From NCBI GenBank assembly GCA_013287135.1, contig JABDEK010000006.1:17202-81201 (forward strand): a DNA stretch of 64,000 nucleotides. Direction: 5' to 3'. Shown in pieces: positions 19,164 through 64,000 of the stretch. This stretch comes from Acidobacteriota bacterium. Its GTDB lineage: Bacteria > Acidobacteriota > Terriglobia > Acidiferrales > UBA7541. How positions within the stretch are numbered: position 1 is the first letter of the stretch; every line of letters begins with the position of its first letter. A program made the position numbers and the translations under genes. The notes beneath the pieces were generated by a model. The model was given only the letters and a program-made list of their open reading frames with translations. It searched no databases and was not told where the DNA came from.

Positions 19164-19922
19164 ATGTCGCTCGTAGCTCGCATAGCGCTCTTGTTTTTCG
19201 CCGTCAGTATGTTAACTCCGGCAGCCGCGTTTGCTCGCCCGCCACAGTCCACATCTCCTGAGGGCCAGCTTTTCAATTCCGTGAATCGTGAACGCGCCGC
19301 CCAGGGCCTGCCGATCCTCCAGTGGGACGACGCGCTGGCCTCCGCCGCTCGCGGCCACGCCAGCCAGATGGCGCTGCATAATTTAATGTCTCACCAGCTT
19401 CCCGGTGAGCCGGAATTGATCGCCCGCGCCAACGCCGCTGGCGTTCGGTTCAGCGTTATCGCGGAAAACGTAGCCATCGGTCCCGACGCTTCCACGATCC
19501 ATACTGCTTGGATGCATTCTCCCGGCCATCGAGCAAATATCCTCAGACCCGAGCTCAACGTACTTGGCATCGCCGTCGTACTGGGAAGCGGGGGCCTCTT
19601 CGCCGTACAAGATTTCGCACAAACTTCCGCGAATTTGAATCTCGCTCAACAAGAACAACGAATGGTCTCACTTTTAGCCGCGCGTGGCCTGCAAGCCACT
19701 GCTTCTCCGGAAGCTCAACAATTCTGTAATGCGCAGCGCGCGTACATGGGGAACCACTCGGCCACCATCCTGCGTTTCGAAACTACAGACCTGAGCACAC
19801 TACCGGCTTCGCTGGAGCAGAAAATTCAAGACCGTTCATTTCGCACTGCAACTGTAGCCGCATGCACGCCCGCTAACTCGTCGGGCTTCTCTCGCTTCCG
19901 CCTTGCCGTACTTCTTTTCTGA
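19164..19922 (+). CDS. CAP (SCP/PR1-like) domain secreted protein
   Basis: 'LFNSVNRERAAQGLPILQWDDALASAARGHASQMA', 'HSPGHRANIL'. Confidence 0.88.
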   Translation: MSLVARIALLFFAVSMLTPAAAFARPPQSTSPEGQLFNSVNRERAAQGLPILQWDDALASAARGHASQMALHNLMSHQLPGEPELIARANAAGVRFSVIAENVAIGPDASTIHTAWMHSPGHRANILRPELNVLGIAVVLGSGGLFAVQDFAQTSANLNLAQQEQRMVSLLAARGLQATASPEAQQFCNAQRAYMGNHSATILRFETTDLSTLPASLEQKIQDRSFRTATVAACTPANSSGFSRFRLAVLLF

Positions 19923-20048
19923 GTGCTCGCTAGCTCTGCGAAAAGCAGTCTATCTCTCTTGCCGCCATCGATTCACAGGTCTATCATTGAAAGCTCATCA
20001 ATGCGATTTGTAGTTGGAAGTAATCTGTATTTATTTGAAAGGAAAACC

Positions 20049-20903
20049 ATGGCAAGCGGACCAACTGGACCAGCGGCAGGCAAGCGTTTGCAGGATAAAG
20101 CGCCAATCACCGGCGTGAAAAATCTCGTCGCGGTCGCCAGTGGCAAAGGTGGAGTAGGGAAGACCACCGTCGCCGTAAATCTTGCGATCGCGCTCAAAAA
20201 TATGGGCAACGCGGTGGGCTTACTTGACGCAGACGTTTACGGTCCCAACGTCCCCGTCATGCTCGGCACCAATGAACAGCCTCGCGCCGTGGACGAGCGC
20301 ACCATCATCCCGGTGGAAGCTTATGGTCTGAAAATGATTTCCATGGGCCTGCTGAATCCTGGTGACAAGCCCCTCGTCTGGCGCGGCCCCATGCTTCATA
20401 GCGTGATCCAGCAATTTCTGCGTAGCACGCAATGGGGCGCGCTCGACTACCTCATCGTGGACCTGCCGCCCGGCACTGGTGATGTTCAACTCACGCTGAT
20501 TCAGAGTGTTTCCGTTAGCGGCGCGGTAGTGGTTACCACACCTTCCATCGTCGCTCTCGCTGACGTGCGCAAAGCGATCGAGATGTTCCGGCAAGTGAAT
20601 GTCGAGATTCTTGGCGTGGTCGAGAACATGAGCTATTTCAACTGCCCGCATTGCAAAGGTCGCATCGACGTATTCGGCCACGGCGAAGGCCAGCACATGG
20701 CGAAAACTTTCGGCGTGCCGTTCCTTGGCGAGATTGAAATCGATCCGCAGATTCGCATCGGTGGCGATACCGGTAAGCCCGTTGCCTCGCTCGGCGAAGA
20801 TGCTCCGGGCAGTAAGAGCATTTATGCCATGGCTCGCAATGTCGTCGCGCGGGTCGAAGTCGTGAACCAATCCGCCGGCGCTCCGGTTGTCCAGATTTTG
20901 TAG
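20049..20903 (+). CDS. Mrp/NBP35-family Fe-S carrier P-loop ATPase
   Basis: 'VAVASGKGGVGKTTVAVNLAIAL', 'LLDADVYGPNVPVMLG', 'FNCPHCKG'. The ORF track starts at 19923; ATG at 20049 fits the family start better. Confidence 0.92.
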   Translation: MASGPTGPAAGKRLQDKAPITGVKNLVAVASGKGGVGKTTVAVNLAIALKNMGNAVGLLDADVYGPNVPVMLGTNEQPRAVDERTIIPVEAYGLKMISMGLLNPGDKPLVWRGPMLHSVIQQFLRSTQWGALDYLIVDLPPGTGDVQLTLIQSVSVSGAVVVTTPSIVALADVRKAIEMFRQVNVEILGVVENMSYFNCPHCKGRIDVFGHGEGQHMAKTFGVPFLGEIEIDPQIRIGGDTGKPVASLGEDAPGSKSIYAMARNVVARVEVVNQSAGAPVVQIL

Positions 20904-57687: not shown

Positions 57688-58464
57688 ATGATGCAACTAG
57701 GATTCATCGGAACTGGCGAAATCACATTATCCATCGTCACTGGCTTGAGTTCGTCCGGCGTCGCCCCCCACTCCATCTGGTTGTCTCCTCGCAATTCTGC
57801 TGTCGCTCATGGGCTTGCGAATCGTTTCCATGGAATATCCGTCGCGTCCTGTAACCAGGAAGTTCTCGACCATTCCGCCACAATCGTGATCGCTGTGAGG
57901 CCTTCAGCTGCGCGAGATGTTCTTTCGGAATTGGCTTTCCGTCCCGATCATCGGGTTATCAGCCTTGTCGCGACGCTCTCGCTGCGGAGCTTGTCTGCAC
58001 TCGTGGCGCCTGCTGTGCGAATCGCAAGGGCCGTACCGTTGCCGTCAGCGGCAAAACAATTGAGCCCCACGGCGATCTATCCCCCCGATCCGATGGCCTT
58101 TGAACTCTTCGCTGGCGTTGGAACTGTTTTTCCAGTTGAAAGGGAAAACGAGTTCGATGCAATTTGCGCCACGACTGCGACCATTGCGTCCTATTTCGCA
58201 TTTAATGAAACGATTGCGTCTTGGCTGGAGGAGCAAGGTGTTCCAGCATCGCAAGCCAGAGACTACATTGCACGACTCTTTTTAGGGGTAACGACTGGCG
58301 CTGTCGACGCGCCCAAGCGCAGTTTCCAATCGCTGGCCGCTACACACGCGACAGCTGGCGGCATAAATGAGCAATTTCTCAAACACTTGGTTGAACGGGG
58401 CCTCCTGACGAGAATCTCGGAGGCTCTGGACGCGGTTCTGCACCGAATCGGGGCGGAATCATAG
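57688..58464 (+). CDS. Pyrroline-5-carboxylate reductase-like / NADP-binding oxidoreductase
   Basis: 'MQLGFIGTGEITLSIVTGLSSSGVAPHSIWLSPRNSAVAHGLANRF', 'RIARAVPLPSAAKQLSPTAIYPPD', 'LFLGVTTGAVD'. Confidence 0.82.
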   Translation: MMQLGFIGTGEITLSIVTGLSSSGVAPHSIWLSPRNSAVAHGLANRFHGISVASCNQEVLDHSATIVIAVRPSAARDVLSELAFRPDHRVISLVATLSLRSLSALVAPAVRIARAVPLPSAAKQLSPTAIYPPDPMAFELFAGVGTVFPVERENEFDAICATTATIASYFAFNETIASWLEEQGVPASQARDYIARLFLGVTTGAVDAPKRSFQSLAATHATAGGINEQFLKHLVERGLLTRISEALDAVLHRIGAES

Positions 58465-58691: not shown

Positions 58692-59141
58692 CTAGGGTTC
58701 CAATAACGTCTTGATATGCGACACGATCTCGCGAGCGGTGTTCTGGTTCATCTTTTGCAACACCGTCTCGCTCGCAAAGCGCGCCAGTTGTTGCTGAGGC
58801 ACTTCGTATTCCACTTCCAACGAGAGCTTCGTGTTCGCACCGTCGGGCTCGCAGCGGTAAGTCCAAGTGCTCTTGTTGCCCGTGAGAGTTTTGAATTGAT
58901 ACTTCTTCGGCGCCTCCGAGGCTGTGCACTCAGAATGACCGCTAATGACAAGCCCGAGCCAATTGAATTCGTAGTCCCAGGATCGCTTGTCAGGAGAAAT
59001 ATTATTGATGCGGCTTAAGCCGGGAACAAACATCACGGCTCGTTGAGGCTCGACAAACATTTGAAATACCTTCTCAGCCGGGGCCGCGACCAACGCGCTC
59101 TCGGTAACTTTGGGCATTTTCTTTTGTCCTCCATTCCTCAA
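58692..59141 (-). CDS. SRPBCC-family protein (polyketide-cyclase/CoxG-like fold)
   Basis: 'VTESALVAAPAEKVFQMFVEPQRAVMFVPGLSRIN...DYEFNWLGLVISGHSECT'. Confidence 0.8.
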   Translation of the reverse strand: MRNGGQKKMPKVTESALVAAPAEKVFQMFVEPQRAVMFVPGLSRINNISPDKRSWDYEFNWLGLVISGHSECTASEAPKKYQFKTLTGNKSTWTYRCEPDGANTKLSLEVEYEVPQQQLARFASETVLQKMNQNTAREIVSHIKTLLEP

Positions 59142-59470
59142 TCAGAGTATCGGGCCGATTTCAGCAGTGCAGCTGCGAGCAGGTGGCGTTTCTTCTCCGA
59201 AAACGCACTCATATCCAAGAGGATGATAGTCCAGAACGCCGTTCGCTGCCAAGCGATCTGCCCAGCGCCATCGGCGAAGCTGATTCGCTGCCGATCAACC
59301 TTCGAAGTTTCCATCAGCAGATCGAGCGCGTTGCAAAACACCACTGCCCAATCGCGTTCCCGCCGATGAATGGCAAACCAGACTTGCCGCAACCTGCGAT
59401 CCGTATCGCGGGAGTATACCCGTGCAATAAAGGTGCGGCGCAGGTCAATGATTCGAATCCGTATGCTCAT
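59138..59470 (-). CDS. Hypothetical protein in operon
   Basis: 110 aa; 4-bp overlaps with both neighbours support it as a real cistron; no recognised domain. Confidence 0.55.
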   Translation of the reverse strand: MSIRIRIIDLRRTFIARVYSRDTDRRLRQVWFAIHRRERDWAVVFCNALDLLMETSKVDRQRISFADGAGQIAWQRTAFWTIILLDMSAFSEKKRHLLAAALLKSARYSD

Positions 59471-60288
59471 TTTCTCGCGACAAGAATGCTTTGAATGCCC
59501 AATTCATCGTTGCGGGCGCGCACTTCCCGAAAGCCCGCCGCGCGCGCCAGCTCCGCCAGGCTCTCGGCTTTCCGGTAGTTCACACGAAGTTCAGCGATCT
59601 TCAGCAAATACTCGGAAATCAAGCGGCGCTCCATGCCGCTGCTCAAGAACACGCCGCCTGGACGGAGCGTTGCAAAAACTCGGCCATAAAGGATGCTAAG
59701 CTTTTCATCATCCAGAAATTCCGCCAATCCGGTGGAACTGATAAAATCGGCCGCAGCAGGATAACTGCTACCGCAGAGCGCGTCTCCCTCACGAATATGG
59801 AAATTCTTCAATCCATTTTCCTCCGCGAAGCGTTTTGCCTTGCGCAGGACCTCGGGGTCGAGATCGAGTCCGTGAAACGTTACCTTGCACAAGTCGGCTC
59901 CCCGTTGGCGTGCAATAGCTGCTCCTTCCACCAGGTCGCGAGGAATTCCACAGGGGACGCTTAAGATGGATAGTTCCACACCGCTGCGCTGGCAAAGAAA
60001 ATGCGCCAGTTCGTCGCGGGAGGCGAGAAAGCGGTTCCGGAAGGAACGAACCGCAGGCATCGCGAGCAAGCGCGCATCCACCCAGCGACCCAGAGCATTT
60101 CTTCCCGAAGCGACGTTGCGATAAATGTGATCCGCGAACGAATAGCTTCCCGAGTTCTCGAACCCCTCGCGCGCGAGATCACTTCCCTGTAACAAATAAT
60201 AGAGCGGGAGGCCTGCAATGTGCCCGCGTTTGAGTAGGGAGAGGGGAATCGACTGCGACCTGCGCGTACGGTTGTAGAATTGGGCCAC
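59467..60288 (-). CDS. Class I SAM-dependent methyltransferase-like protein
   Basis: 'LSILSVPCGIPRDLVEGAA', 'FHGLDLDPEVLRKAKRFAEENGL', 'VFATLRPGGVFLSSGM'. Confidence 0.82.
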   Translation of the reverse strand: MAQFYNRTRRSQSIPLSLLKRGHIAGLPLYYLLQGSDLAREGFENSGSYSFADHIYRNVASGRNALGRWVDARLLAMPAVRSFRNRFLASRDELAHFLCQRSGVELSILSVPCGIPRDLVEGAAIARQRGADLCKVTFHGLDLDPEVLRKAKRFAEENGLKNFHIREGDALCGSSYPAAADFISSTGLAEFLDDEKLSILYGRVFATLRPGGVFLSSGMERRLISEYLLKIAELRVNYRKAESLAELARAAGFREVRARNDELGIQSILVARK

Positions 60289-60295
60289 TTCATCC

Positions 60296-61408
60296 TCAAA
60301 TTCGCAAGAAGACAGCGATCATTTCCTTCATGATTTCGGGCGTTCCAGCGGCGATGGTGAGAGCGCGAGCATCTCGATAAAAGCGGCTGCACCAATGCTG
60401 ATCCATATAGCCAACTCCACCGTGCAGCTGCACACAACTCTCCACCACGGATTGGGCGGTTTGGTAGCTGAAAAGTTTTATCATGCAGATTTCTTTGGTG
60501 ACATTCTCTCCCTGCAACCAGCCACGAAACGCGTGGTAGTTGAGCTGTCTGGCTGCTTGCAAGCGGGTGTGCATGTCGGCAACCTGGTGGCGGATGGCCT
60601 GGAAGCGGTTGAGCGTGGTGCCGAATGCGGATCGGCCTTGCAAGTATCGAAGAGTTTTGTCGAGAGAGTATTGGGCCCAGGAAACGCAAGCCAGACCGCC
60701 GAATAGACGTTCCCGGTTCAGTCCGCTCTGAACGTACGCAAAAGCCTGCCCTCGTTCACCCAGCATGCTGTTCGCCGGAATTTCACAATTCGTCAGTATG
60801 ATCTCTCCGGCGGCGGAGGTGTCTAACCCGAGCATCGAGAGCCGCTTGATTGAGACACTGTTGCTGCTGACGGGAATCAGAAACAAGCTCATCCCCTGCA
60901 GGCCCTGAACAGGGTCCGTGCGCGCGGCCAGAATCAGGAAGTCGGCGATTGCCGCATTTGTGATGTAGGTCTTGGTGCCGTTGAGCCGCCACCCGGCTCG
61001 CGTTTCTTGTGCTTTTGTTTGCAGCGCGGCAAAGTCCGACCCCGCGGAAGGCTCAGAGACTGCGACCGCCCCTAATTTCTCGCCACGCAGAAGTGGGGAA
61101 AGGAATTTTTTCTTCTGCGCGGCGCTCCCCAGTTCCTCCAGCATCGGAGCGACGAGGTTTGCTTGAACAAACACGCTCAGCGCAAAACCCAGGGATTCGC
61201 ATTTCGGAAGCTCTTCGGCGATAATTCCATTCCGTTCGCGATCCAGCGAGATCAGCTTCTGTCGTGCACACTCGCGAAAAATGGAGATCGGAAACTGTCT
61301 TTGCTTTTCCCATTTTTCGCTTAGAGGCCGAAGTCCGTGTTCGACGAAGGACCGGACATGCGCCCGAAAGGCGTGGTGTTGAGGTAGAAAGTCATGCAAC
61401 ATGCTCAA
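60296..61408 (-). CDS. Acyl-CoA dehydrogenase-like flavoprotein
   Basis: 'LGAVAVSEPSAGSDFAALQTKAQETRAGWRLNGTKTYITNAAIADFLILAARTD', 'QLHGGVGYMDQHWCSRFYRDARALTIAAGTPEIMKEMI'. Confidence 0.93.
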   Translation of the reverse strand: MSMLHDFLPQHHAFRAHVRSFVEHGLRPLSEKWEKQRQFPISIFRECARQKLISLDRERNGIIAEELPKCESLGFALSVFVQANLVAPMLEELGSAAQKKKFLSPLLRGEKLGAVAVSEPSAGSDFAALQTKAQETRAGWRLNGTKTYITNAAIADFLILAARTDPVQGLQGMSLFLIPVSSNSVSIKRLSMLGLDTSAAGEIILTNCEIPANSMLGERGQAFAYVQSGLNRERLFGGLACVSWAQYSLDKTLRYLQGRSAFGTTLNRFQAIRHQVADMHTRLQAARQLNYHAFRGWLQGENVTKEICMIKLFSYQTAQSVVESCVQLHGGVGYMDQHWCSRFYRDARALTIAAGTPEIMKEMIAVFLRI

Positions 61409-61647
61409 GGCGCAGCCGCCAGCGCTTGATTCACAGCTTCAATCACTTCCTGCACGGTTCGCAACTTCCACATAGCGGCCTCATTGAGTTCGATCTTGAA
61501 GGCCTCCTCGAGCGACAGCACGCATTCGATTTGTTCCAGCGAGTCCATGCCCAGCTCAGACAGTTTTGTTTCCGGGCGTATTTGAGAGACATCTTCCATT
61601 ACCGCCCTACGGATGATGTTGGTGACGCCTTCTTCAACGGTCTTCAC
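61405..61647 (-). CDS. Acyl carrier protein-like protein
   Basis: GTG start at 61647 overlapping the upstream TGA (GTGA); 'ETKLSELGMDSLEQIECVLSLEEAFKIEL' with phosphopantetheine DSL motif. Confidence 0.9.
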   Translation of the reverse strand: MKTVEEGVTNIIRRAVMEDVSQIRPETKLSELGMDSLEQIECVLSLEEAFKIELNEAAMWKLRTVQEVIEAVNQALAAAP

Positions 61648-62198
61648 GACTGCGTCTCGACAGGGAACAGGCTGTCTAATTGGGAATAAATCTGGCCGGC
61701 GACCTTCCGATCGATTTCCGACCACCTTTGGCGCGAATCGGCAACCTGCGCAACCGAGTATTTCCGAAGAGTTTGTTCGAGCCAGGTATTTTCGCCGGCT
61801 CCGTGCTCTTCTTCTTCACGCAGTATTTCTTCCAGTACGACTCGAACCTTGGGATGGAGACCGGCGGAATTCAATTGTTCACGATAGGCTGACAGGACAC
61901 GGTTTTCGAGGACTTCCGACAACACCAGAAGATCTACAAGCACCTTCGGAACTCCTCCTTCACGAGAGTAGTGCTCTTGTATCGTGCCGGTCGTCGGATC
62001 TACTTCGCCGCCCAAATCGGCAATCACGTCGGTGAGCAAGGCGGCATGATGCGCCTCGGTGGCGCAGTGGCGAGTTATATTCGTCAGCAGCTCTGTACCG
62101 GATAGCGAGCGCGCAAGCCGCCCCATCAGCAGAGCACCGTGCAATTCGCTATTGCGAAAGAAATTCAGAAGCCACATCTCCCGGTCAGTAGGCCGCAT
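61644..62198 (-). CDS. Ferritin-like-fold protein (putative diiron)
   Basis: Two ExxH-type motifs: 'CATEAHHAALL' and 'EILREEEEHGAGENTWL'. Confidence 0.65.
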   Translation of the reverse strand: MRPTDREMWLLNFFRNSELHGALLMGRLARSLSGTELLTNITRHCATEAHHAALLTDVIADLGGEVDPTTGTIQEHYSREGGVPKVLVDLLVLSEVLENRVLSAYREQLNSAGLHPKVRVVLEEILREEEEHGAGENTWLEQTLRKYSVAQVADSRQRWSEIDRKVAGQIYSQLDSLFPVETQS

Positions 62199-62922
62199 GA
62201 ATATCCTTTTGACTGAATTCGGAAATCGAAATCCCGGTTAGCCGGTGCATCTTCTTGTCGAGCGTCAAGATGGCCTGGAAGTCATTCTTGGACGAAACCG
62301 GTACGCGAGAAACCACGTCTGCCCCCACGTGCTTGAAATTCGCGCCAGCCTCCAGCACACGGCGGCAGGCATCTTCATTGCCGCGGAGTCTCGGCGCGAG
62401 CAGATCATACGCAAATTGCGTGTGGCGAAATTCATCTTTGGCGATGAATGCCGCGAGCTGGCGCAGCACCGGTTCCTTGGCCTGCTGGGAAAGGCGCAAG
62501 AAAAAGTAAGCAGCGAAATGCTCGCTAATCATGTAACGCGCAAGTTCGCGAACCGCATCGTCAACGTGGTTTCGAACGTTGCGCCCGCGAATCTCGATAA
62601 GTTCAGAGTCCGTGATGGGGCGATAGCCAACAACTTCGAGGTAGCGGTTCAGAGCGTAGAAGTGTTTGTAAGACTCATAGAGTTGGACCGAAAATACCGA
62701 CGTTACGTCAATCTGGTCCCAGCACGCCTGAACTAAATTGGTCGTATAGACGGGGAAGTAGGATTCGATTAAGGCTGAGTCTCTGATCTGCTCCAACAAT
62801 GCAGGCTGTGTGAGGGCCAATTCGCGGTCAATGCTATTCCATGAAACATCACTTTCCAGGATCCAACGCTGCAATTCGGCGGTAGTGAGGTATTCATCGT
62901 AGATCATCGGATTCTTCCACAC
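62185..62922 (-). CDS. Putative diiron oxygenase/desaturase-like protein
   Basis: Helical protein with 'ARYMISEHFAAYFFLRLS' and 'AAFIAKDEFRHTQFAYDLLAPRL' (DExRH as in acyl-ACP desaturase-type diiron sites). Confidence 0.7.
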   Translation of the reverse strand: MWKNPMIYDEYLTTAELQRWILESDVSWNSIDRELALTQPALLEQIRDSALIESYFPVYTTNLVQACWDQIDVTSVFSVQLYESYKHFYALNRYLEVVGYRPITDSELIEIRGRNVRNHVDDAVRELARYMISEHFAAYFFLRLSQQAKEPVLRQLAAFIAKDEFRHTQFAYDLLAPRLRGNEDACRRVLEAGANFKHVGADVVSRVPVSSKNDFQAILTLDKKMHRLTGISISEFSQKDIHAAY

Positions 62923-63712
62923 GCCGCAGCGCTTCGTTCACTCCATGTTGCGCTATCAACGCCATGCACCAGCGTTCGATGCCGAAAGCCGCACAACCGG
63001 AATATGCCGGCTCACCGCCCGTGAGTGTAACTTCGAATCTTGACGTGAAAAAGCGTTCGTGCAAATTGAACGACGCTACCGGAACATCCGTTCCCAAGAG
63101 GCCCGGCGCCGTGAGCTCATATTTTAGCTCTTTGATCTGTTGAAGGAGTTTCTTGCCTCGTGTCTCGCCCAGAAAGAACGGATCCTTGGCGGGCGTCAAG
63201 TTCACTGTTAGACCGAGTTGCGCGGCCCAGCGCGCAATTCTTTGCTTCCAAGCGTCACACTGAGCGCGCACAAAGCCGCAGTCGCCAAGAAATACGACCT
63301 CCCTCATCGTGAATTCCCAAAGATGGCTGTCGTTCGCGGATTCCGCGCGGAAACATCTTCCCTGGCAGGTTAGGAGGGTGTCTCCCGCAAGGGCCGAGTT
63401 CATCAGAAGTTGGTAGCAATGGTAGCAGACTGCAGGCGACAGAAAATATCTTCCTCTTTTGTTCGGAGAATTCACAGCCGAGGCGAATTGCGGGAAAGAC
63501 TGGAAATACTCGCTGAGATCCAGGATCTCTTCGGCAATGACGGTCGGAAACTGCCGTTCTTCCGAACCCGCAGCCAGTGCCATCTCACGGAACCTGGATT
63601 CTAGGGCATGAATCAATGTGGTTTCAGCGGCGCCTGGGGAGAGCAAACCATCATCGGAGATGGGAAAATCGGAGTGGGGTAGAGTCCACGCGCGCGAGTT
63701 AAGCATGTTCAT
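62894..63712 (-). CDS. Amino acid:[carrier protein] ligase-like (SerRS-like class II core without tRNA-binding arm)
   Basis: 272 aa; class II motif 2-like 'WEFTMREVVFLGDCGFV', motif 3-like 'AYSGCAAFGIERWCMALIAQHG', Cys/Glu/Cys positions ('LLTCQGRCFRAE', 'REVV', 'SGCAAFGIERW') as in atypical zinc-dependent SerRS-like ligases. Confidence 0.78.
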   Translation of the reverse strand: MNMLNSRAWTLPHSDFPISDDGLLSPGAAETTLIHALESRFREMALAAGSEERQFPTVIAEEILDLSEYFQSFPQFASAVNSPNKRGRYFLSPAVCYHCYQLLMNSALAGDTLLTCQGRCFRAESANDSHLWEFTMREVVFLGDCGFVRAQCDAWKQRIARWAAQLGLTVNLTPAKDPFFLGETRGKKLLQQIKELKYELTAPGLLGTDVPVASFNLHERFFTSRFEVTLTGGEPAYSGCAAFGIERWCMALIAQHGVNEALRRVEESDDLR

Positions 63713-63936
63713 CGCTCTGGGAAATTCTTGGCGATGGTTTCGATGGTGCGAAACCGGTCCATTACGATTAGTTCGTCTGGTATCTTCTTGCCCGATCTTA
63801 CCTCAAGAAAAGCAATCAAACGCAGAATCTTCAAGGAATCGATGCGGCCCTCATCAAATAGCGCGGTATCCGGCGCGACTTTTTCCTGCGAGTCCGCGAG
63901 CAAATCTTCATTCACGAACTTCAGCAAGATTTCCAC
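63709..63936 (-). CDS. Carrier protein (putative amino-acyl acceptor)
   Basis: 75 aa, GTG start, 'TALFDEGRIDSLKILRLIAFLEVRSGKKI' with DSL motif; overlaps the ligase start by 4 bp. Confidence 0.85.
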   Translation of the reverse strand: MEILLKFVNEDLLADSQEKVAPDTALFDEGRIDSLKILRLIAFLEVRSGKKIPDELIVMDRFRTIETIAKNFPER

Positions 63937-63944
63937 TGCCGGAT

Positions 63945-64000
63945 TCAGAGTCGGGCTCCCGTGGCGTTAGTCAGCAATTCGATCGGATCGAGACTCATCC
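63945..64000 (-). CDS. 3' end of an upstream operon gene, truncated by right window edge
   Basis: Minus strand reads ...MSLDPIELLTNATGARL then TGA at 63947-63945; too short to identify. Confidence 0.3.
   Translation of the reverse strand, partial: MSLDPIELLTNATGARL

Follow-up and report, generated by a model that had tools for sequence, protein, structure and literature searches.

A conserved gene cassette pairing a SerRS-like amino acid:[carrier protein] ligase with two diiron proteins, found in an Acidobacteriota bacterium and other phyla

Amino acid:[carrier protein] (AA:CP) ligases descend from tRNA synthetases, and the question of which pathways they serve has stood ever since they were discovered. 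The closest described example is Bll0957 of Bradyrhizobium (PDB 3mey, 4h2s-4h2y), which combines a class II core of the seryl-tRNA synthetase (SerRS) type, lacking a tRNA-binding domain, with a Cys/Glu/Cys zinc site and an adjoining small carrier protein. All of these features recur, at about 30% sequence identity, in a ligase (LIG) encoded near the right end of the window, the 64,000-nucleotide stretch analyzed here (positions 17202-81201 of the 81201-base Acidobacteriota contig JABDEK010000006.1). LIG belongs to an operon of nine co-directional, mostly overlapping minus-strand open reading frames (ORFs) at 58692-63936, with a cut gene at the edge. Rhizobial and Azospirillum operons run carrier protein - acyl-CoA dehydrogenase - ligase - DUF1839 - GH2, whereas the ligase in the window is followed by two diiron-type proteins, DI and FER, and its relatives elsewhere add a KASIII-like enzyme and a thioester reductase (TR), none of which the rhizobial and Azospirillum operons carry. 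The rhizobial and Azospirillum operons lie at L018:6485-12338 and L016:8554-14370, and the Rhizobium gallicum copy stands beside nif genes.

Comparative mapping shows that this ligase group travels with a defined set of partners. Scanning 84,980 species genomes yielded the 80 best ligase loci, which were searched with the window proteins and with profiles. A KASIII-like gene occurs in nine of the 80, and a NAD_binding_4-type TR in the identical nine; DI and/or FER are present in eight of these, the ninth (L105) being cut by a contig end, while the other 71 loci contain none of the four. Fisher tests for the co-occurrence give 4e-12 and 3e-10, values uncorrected for the relatedness of the loci and therefore indicative only. 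Profile searches found further strong DI copies in Gemmatimonadota (16 of 395 genomes), Verrucomicrobiota (5 of 378) and Myxococcota (4 of 195), with phyla assigned from the named loci used as search centers. The cassette is thus present in at least four bacterial phyla, and orthologues of CP1 (the carrier protein next to the ligase), LIG, DI, FER, the methyltransferase (MT), CP2 (a second carrier protein) and the SRPBCC protein occur together outside the Acidobacteriota.

Ordered maps of about 29 related loci from Gemmatimonadota, Verrucomicrobiota and Myxococcota reveal a conserved core, KASIII-like - TR - CP1 - ligase - (CP2) - DI - FER - (MT), in five arrangements. Verrucomicrobiota have KASIII-TR-CP1-LIG-CP2-DI-FER-MT (type a). 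The MT type of Gemmatimonadota has KASIII-TR-CP1-LIG-MT-DI-FER-CP2, with SRPBCC beside KASIII in three operons (type b), and other Gemmatimonadota have KASIII-TR-CP1-LIG-DI-FER-DUF3419(BtaA-like)-420-aa protein (type c). Archangium and its kin carry PPTase-KASIII-TR-CP1-LIG-DI-membrane-desaturase-like (type d), and two loci, L063 and L099, carry KASIII-CP-LIG-TR-FER (type e); a phosphopantetheinyl transferase (PPTase) gene heads several operons. The window order, CP1-LIG-DI-FER-CP2-ACAD-MT-ORF110-SRPBCC, where ACAD is an acyl-CoA dehydrogenase-like flavoprotein, is that of an MT-type operon. MT orthologues were found in ten related operons, and a second carrier protein in most MT-type operons (L055, L134, L136, L138-L143) and in none of types c or d. 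SRPBCC orthologues lie beside the Gemmatimonadota operons L134, L136 and L137, making four loci with the window. Since the window ligase forms a long branch without a resolved place in the LIG tree, the DI tree was used for placement; there the window is sister to the Verrucomicrobiota copies, and the pair separates with 99% bootstrap. Gemmatimonadota operons at L046:5238-8571 and in its relatives carry, in addition to the DUF3419 gene (a BtaA-like aminocarboxypropyl transferase), genes for an MMPL-like transporter and for a 420-aa protein that matches nothing in Pfam.

LIG matches the NCBIfam amino acid--[ACP] ligase model at 5e-39 and Bll0957 in the PDB at 1e-24 as a single sequence, or 3.5e-67 with a profile built from the close-family alignment. 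At 134 bits, against an equivalog cut-off of 357, it is a distant relative rather than an equivalog of the rhizobial enzyme. The type-2 SerRS-like class II catalytic core is present and the N-terminal tRNA-binding domain is absent: LIG has 272 aa and aligns with SerRS proteins of 518-527 aa from their residue 308-311 onward. C96, E138 and C240, which correspond to the zinc ligands of the family, and R122, R137 and R247 are invariant across 26 family sequences. The CP1 orthologue adjoins the ligase in the relatives, and Ser34 is invariant in the carrier-protein alignment. Family membership, kept catalytic residues and the constant CP1-LIG adjacency make it probable that LIG loads an amino acid onto CP1.

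Both diiron-type proteins retain complete sets of candidate metal ligands, six invariant Glu/His each. In DI these are E53, E83, H87, E134, E164 and H167 (numbered from GTG; 27 homologues), with a first motif of E-x-x-x-H instead of E-x-x-H and a later E164xxH167; in FER they are E18, E48xxH51, E98 and E129xxH132 (20 homologues). AlphaFold2 models place the candidates on four core helices in each protein, DI forming a helical bundle (pLDDT 84 for DI, 87 for FER). This four-helix architecture and ligand pattern are shared with acyl-ACP desaturases, R2lox and COQ7/MiaE, yet nothing scores above a curated cut-off. DI profiles match the acyl-ACP desaturase DesA2 (4e-10) and R2lox II (1e-6); PF03405 is hit by 14 of 27 DI members, at best 9e-5, and the window member is not among them. 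The nearest families of FER are rubrerythrin, COQ7, AurF and MiaE, all weak; in Pfam, 13 of 20 members match COQ7 and seven match AurF (E<0.01), the window member giving no AurF match, and the best AurF score, in L046, reaches 27.9 of the 29.6 bits of the PF11583 gathering threshold. Foldseek hits for FER were ferritin-like proteins, among them aldehyde-deformylating oxygenases; those for DI included R2lox, stearoyl-ACP desaturase and the azoxy synthase VlmB, all with E >= 0.001 for both proteins, and profile comparison of both with AurF proteins gave weak matches. With these matches below the gathering scores, homology does not fix the reaction type. Given the complete ligand sets and the strict linkage, the two proteins would, with somewhat better than even probability, oxidize the aminoacyl group bound to CP1.

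Diiron oxidation of carrier-bound amino acids invites comparison with diazeniumdiolate-type clusters. In the ham cluster, HamD is an A-T-R (adenylation-thiolation-reductase) protein, HamC an AurF N-oxygenase, HamA haem-oxygenase-like and HamE a polyketide cyclase (PMC5878181). The ham/mgo/pvf systems (fragin, valdiazen, leudiazen) share with the cassette the roles of activation, carrier, reductase, two non-haem oxygenases and SRPBCC, so the cassette could be their split-protein counterpart, in which diiron enzymes N-oxidize the carrier-bound amino group, SRPBCC assists and the reductase releases an alcohol. The seven AurF-matching FER members, below cut-off as they are, the presence of VlmB among the DI fold matches, and a separate clade of ligases with true AurF neighbors in Tistrella and Streptomyces all fit this idea. 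Against it, the parts of the cassette are separate proteins and its loader is SerRS-like, where ham/mgo/pvf employ an A-T-R non-ribosomal peptide synthetase (NRPS); no NRPS was seen in the related operons, so membership in ham/mgo/pvf fails. Its diiron subfamilies differ, KASIII and the methyltransferase are extra, no haem-oxygenase-like protein is present, and SRPBCC occurs in four loci only. FER also matches COQ7 and rubrerythrin more commonly than AurF, and has six invariant Glu/His where AurF, judging by the family and an alignment, has a seven-ligand site including a third His; on score and ligands, FER as a plain AurF N-oxygenase was rejected. The split-counterpart explanation is improbable, and N-oxygenation in particular hardly less so.

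Valanimycin biosynthesis likewise employs both a SerRS-family protein and a diiron enzyme: VlmL is a SerRS that charges tRNA, and VlmB is a diiron azoxy synthase. The DI fold resembles VlmB among many others, whereas the cassette ligase, unlike VlmL, is paired with a carrier protein of its own and has lost or never had the domain that binds tRNA.

The desaturase-like character of DI suggests another route, in which KASIII, CP2, DI and TR would build a fatty chain, or condense one with the amino acid on CP1, giving a secreted or membrane aminolipid. This fits the DesA2 match, the membrane-desaturase-like gene and AMP-ligase downstream in Archangium, and the DUF3419 (BtaA-type) gene downstream in most Gemmatimonadota operons. 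The core, however, has no acyltransferase to a lipid backbone, DI and FER stand directly behind the amino-acid loader, and the AMP-ligase is not conserved, which leaves the aminolipid pathway unlikely.

The two remaining core enzymes are known from the relatives. KASIII-like proteins have an invariant Cys141, but their Cys-His-Asn triad is altered: the Asn position is His in all (GHT for GNT), and the L055 protein also lacks the first triad His. Classical decarboxylative condensation is therefore not assured, and acyl transfer is possible. TR matches the TIGR01746 thioester reductase model at 5e-36 (125 of 213 bits) and exceeds the PF07993 gathering score, and its catalytic S135, Y162 and K166 (S + YxxxK) are invariant; reductive release by this enzyme is somewhat more likely than not.

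Taken together, the window genes have an even chance of being the downstream portion of a thiotemplate pathway that is conserved and split, every part being a separate protein. LIG would adenylate a small amino acid and transfer it to the phosphopantetheine arm of CP1; DI (acyl-ACP-desaturase/R2lox-like) and FER (COQ7/MiaE/AurF-like) would then oxidize the tethered aminoacyl group, either at carbon or at nitrogen. The KASIII-like enzyme, with its Cys and Asn-to-His change, may extend or transfer the chain, and the NADPH-dependent TR may free it as an aldehyde or alcohol. Tailoring would fall to MT together with CP2, joined in some lineages by SRPBCC, with ACAD contributing an additional dehydrogenation in the window. 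A small amino-acid derivative, diffusible or lipid-like in character, is the probable product. The direct observations are gene content and order, conservation across phyla and the kept catalytic residues. An earlier note on this DNA, made from the sequence alone, had proposed loading on a cognate carrier protein by a SerRS-like ligase and oxidation of the tethered amino acid by two diiron proteins, encoded in one transcript. Its loader, carrier, diiron proteins and co-transcription are supported by the kept zinc and motif Arg residues, the carrier serine, the ligand sets, the conserved gene set in the homologous loci and the seven orthologues that co-occur in other phyla, and LIG passed the checks that the note had set for it on family, zinc ligands and Arg positions. 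The transfer to the second carrier protein that it thought possible stays hypothetical, although CP2 does follow the MT subtype. Its scheme lacked the ketosynthase-type step and reductive release, which are presumably central since KASIII and TR belong to the conserved core.

Several observations weigh against this split pathway. A search of the assembly to which the window belongs, 79% complete, recovered neither KASIII nor TR, but a FabH-like match of 26% and short-chain dehydrogenase/reductase matches of 24-31%, on other contigs. The 18 codons left of the upstream gene show no visible likeness to the thioester reductase C-termini that stand ahead of CP1 in the relatives. Both genes are presumed to lie just right of the contig end, where the homologous operons carry them. 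Both diiron families fall under Pfam gathering scores; moreover, the Archangium loci have a membrane-desaturase-like gene in place of FER, and DI was undetected in L063 and L099, so neither diiron protein is strictly obligatory.

Some 30 conserved cassettes in several phyla bind one group of AA:CP ligases to a fixed partner set, and if a pair of diiron enzymes does act on an amino acid held by a carrier protein, that chemistry would be new. The components are known families; their combination was not found described, and no paper on such a cassette turned up in the literature searched. Tentatively, the cassette may even define a new cross-phylum metabolite class, made by a split assembly line with LIG loading, a two-diiron relay, non-classical KASIII coupling and reductase release; on that reading the relay might, just as speculatively, form N-O, N-N or C=C bonds, not known so far on such substrates, and SerRS-like AA:CP ligases would gain a dedicated pathway outside rhizobia. 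Archangium violaceum Cb vi76 carries one version of the cassette, which makes its role directly testable by gene deletion and metabolomics.

The flavoprotein, which the earlier note counted among the oxidants of the pathway, does not share this conservation: no ACAD gene turned up in the homologous operons. In the PDB it matches 5ol2 at 1e-55. Prolyl-PCP dehydrogenase models match at 8e-54 but reach 183 of 650 bits, and assignment as a prolyl-PCP dehydrogenase was rejected on score. ACAD could still serve extender-unit supply, dehydrogenating the CP1-bound amino acid for a polyketide synthase (PKS) or NRPS (cf. aminomalonyl-ACP, pyrrolyl-PCP), in line with those sub-threshold matches and with the adjoining ligase and carrier protein in the window and likewise in rhizobial, Azospirillum, Streptomyces and Alkalihalophilus loci. 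Yet the operons with DI, FER, KASIII and TR have no ACAD and no PKS or NRPS genes, and ordinary short-chain and isovaleryl-CoA dehydrogenases lead the PDB ranking, so this role is quite improbable. The prodigiosin MBC pathway with its prolyl-PCP dehydrogenases (RedW/PigA) resembles the cassette in the roles of dehydrogenase, carrier protein, methyltransferase and ketosynthase; unlike it, the cassette loader is not an adenylation domain, its diiron proteins have no counterpart there, and ACAD stays below the cut-offs.

LIG occurs in one of 95 genomes of the window's order, the other 94 having none, and DI in one of 396 genomes of the phylum, the window genome itself. Contamination of the bin was rejected, since Lon on the same contig shares 88-97% identity with genus members. 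Over its right-hand part, the window shows no DNA synteny with the compared stretch of one genus member, and horizontal acquisition of the operon is likely. This solitary occurrence may mark a recent acquisition; it would also suit accidental neighbors or a decaying operon without joint function. The frames are nevertheless all open, the starts overlap, the catalytic residues are invariant and the gene set is common across phyla, so chance or decay is very improbable. Convergent with the operon, at 57688-58464 (+), lies a pyrroline-5-carboxylate reductase gene (PRK06476, above cut-off); it has no close orthologue in 19 other genus genomes (best 24-27% identity) and may therefore belong to the same acquired segment.

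Feature coordinates are collected in Table 1. All nine ORFs lie where the earlier note had put them, and its family calls proved right, the two diiron proteins being matched only weakly by single sequence. The operon is truncated on the right, and its upstream gene cut, because the contig terminates at 81201, the last base of the window. Of the overlaps previously listed, those of 4 bp at CP1/LIG (ATGA), FER/CP2 (GTGA) and MT/110-aa ORF (ATGA) are read in the DNA. DI most likely starts at ATG 62907, which follows a Shine-Dalgarno-like GGAAG and is where homologues begin; its overlap with LIG is then 14 bp, not 29. SRPBCC most likely starts at ATG 59117, preceded by GGAGG, instead of TTG 59141, and its listed overlap with the 110-aa ORF (59138-59141) is then probably spurious. 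ATG 61402 is a possible start of the dehydrogenase.

Table 1. Features of the minus-strand operon at the right edge of the window
Feature	Position	Strand	Evidence and remarks
Cut upstream gene	63945..64000	-	About 18 codons left; one open frame ending ...MSLDPIELLTNATGARL, then stop
CP1, carrier protein, 75 aa	63709..63936	-	PP-binding 1.7e-6; putative phosphopantetheine Ser34 (GRIDSLKI)
LIG, SerRS-like amino acid:[carrier protein] ligase, 272 aa	62894..63712	-	NCBIfam, PDB and profile matches
DI, desaturase/R2lox-like diiron protein	62185..62907	-	ORF open to GTG 62922; ATG 62907 preferred
FER, ferritin-like (rubrerythrin/COQ7/MiaE/AurF-like) diiron protein	61644..62198	-	Invariant ligand candidates; AlphaFold2 model
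CP2, second acyl carrier protein (GMDSLEQ)	61405..61647	-	PP-binding 7.6e-12
ACAD, acyl-CoA dehydrogenase-like flavoprotein	60296..61408	-	PF00441 6e-40
MT, class I methyltransferase	59467..60288	-	PF12147 1e-10
110-aa ORF	59138..59470	-	No homologue in related loci
SRPBCC/polyketide-cyclase-like protein	58692..59117	-	PF10604 7e-12; ORF open to TTG 59141

Other SerRS-like ligase loci show further associations. Many Anaerolineales/Chloroflexota and Akkermansia genomes (L028-L054) have such ligases without the KASIII/TR/DI/FER set. In Tistrella (L015:8760-12000) and Streptomyces NBC_00335 (L020:8834-10834), ligase and carrier protein adjoin a diiron oxygenase that truly belongs to the AurF family (PF11583 3e-29 and 4e-36, respectively), a second, independent ligase-diiron association. 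Priestia koreensis (L014:9941-13280) and Alkalihalophilus (L017:8797-13392) have the ligase beside a BtrH-N-domain protein and carrier proteins; L017 adds 3-hydroxyacyl-CoA and acyl-CoA dehydrogenases, which points to an aminomalonyl-ACP route that the ligase would load. On a Tsukamurella plasmid (L003:8698-19421), ligase, ACP and PPTase lie within an exopolysaccharide cluster, which hints at an aminoacylated polysaccharide.

Relatives of the partner enzymes also occur elsewhere. In Burkholderia arboris (L147:7901-8773, 19803-20327), distant KASIII-like and DI-like genes stand 11 kb apart, and the same pair in B. cenocepacia NZ_CP091014 possibly reflects another pathway using such enzymes. A Methylibium conjugative plasmid (L111:7291-9843) encodes an iron-containing redox enzyme, an enoyl-CoA hydratase and a DI-like ferritin in one operon.

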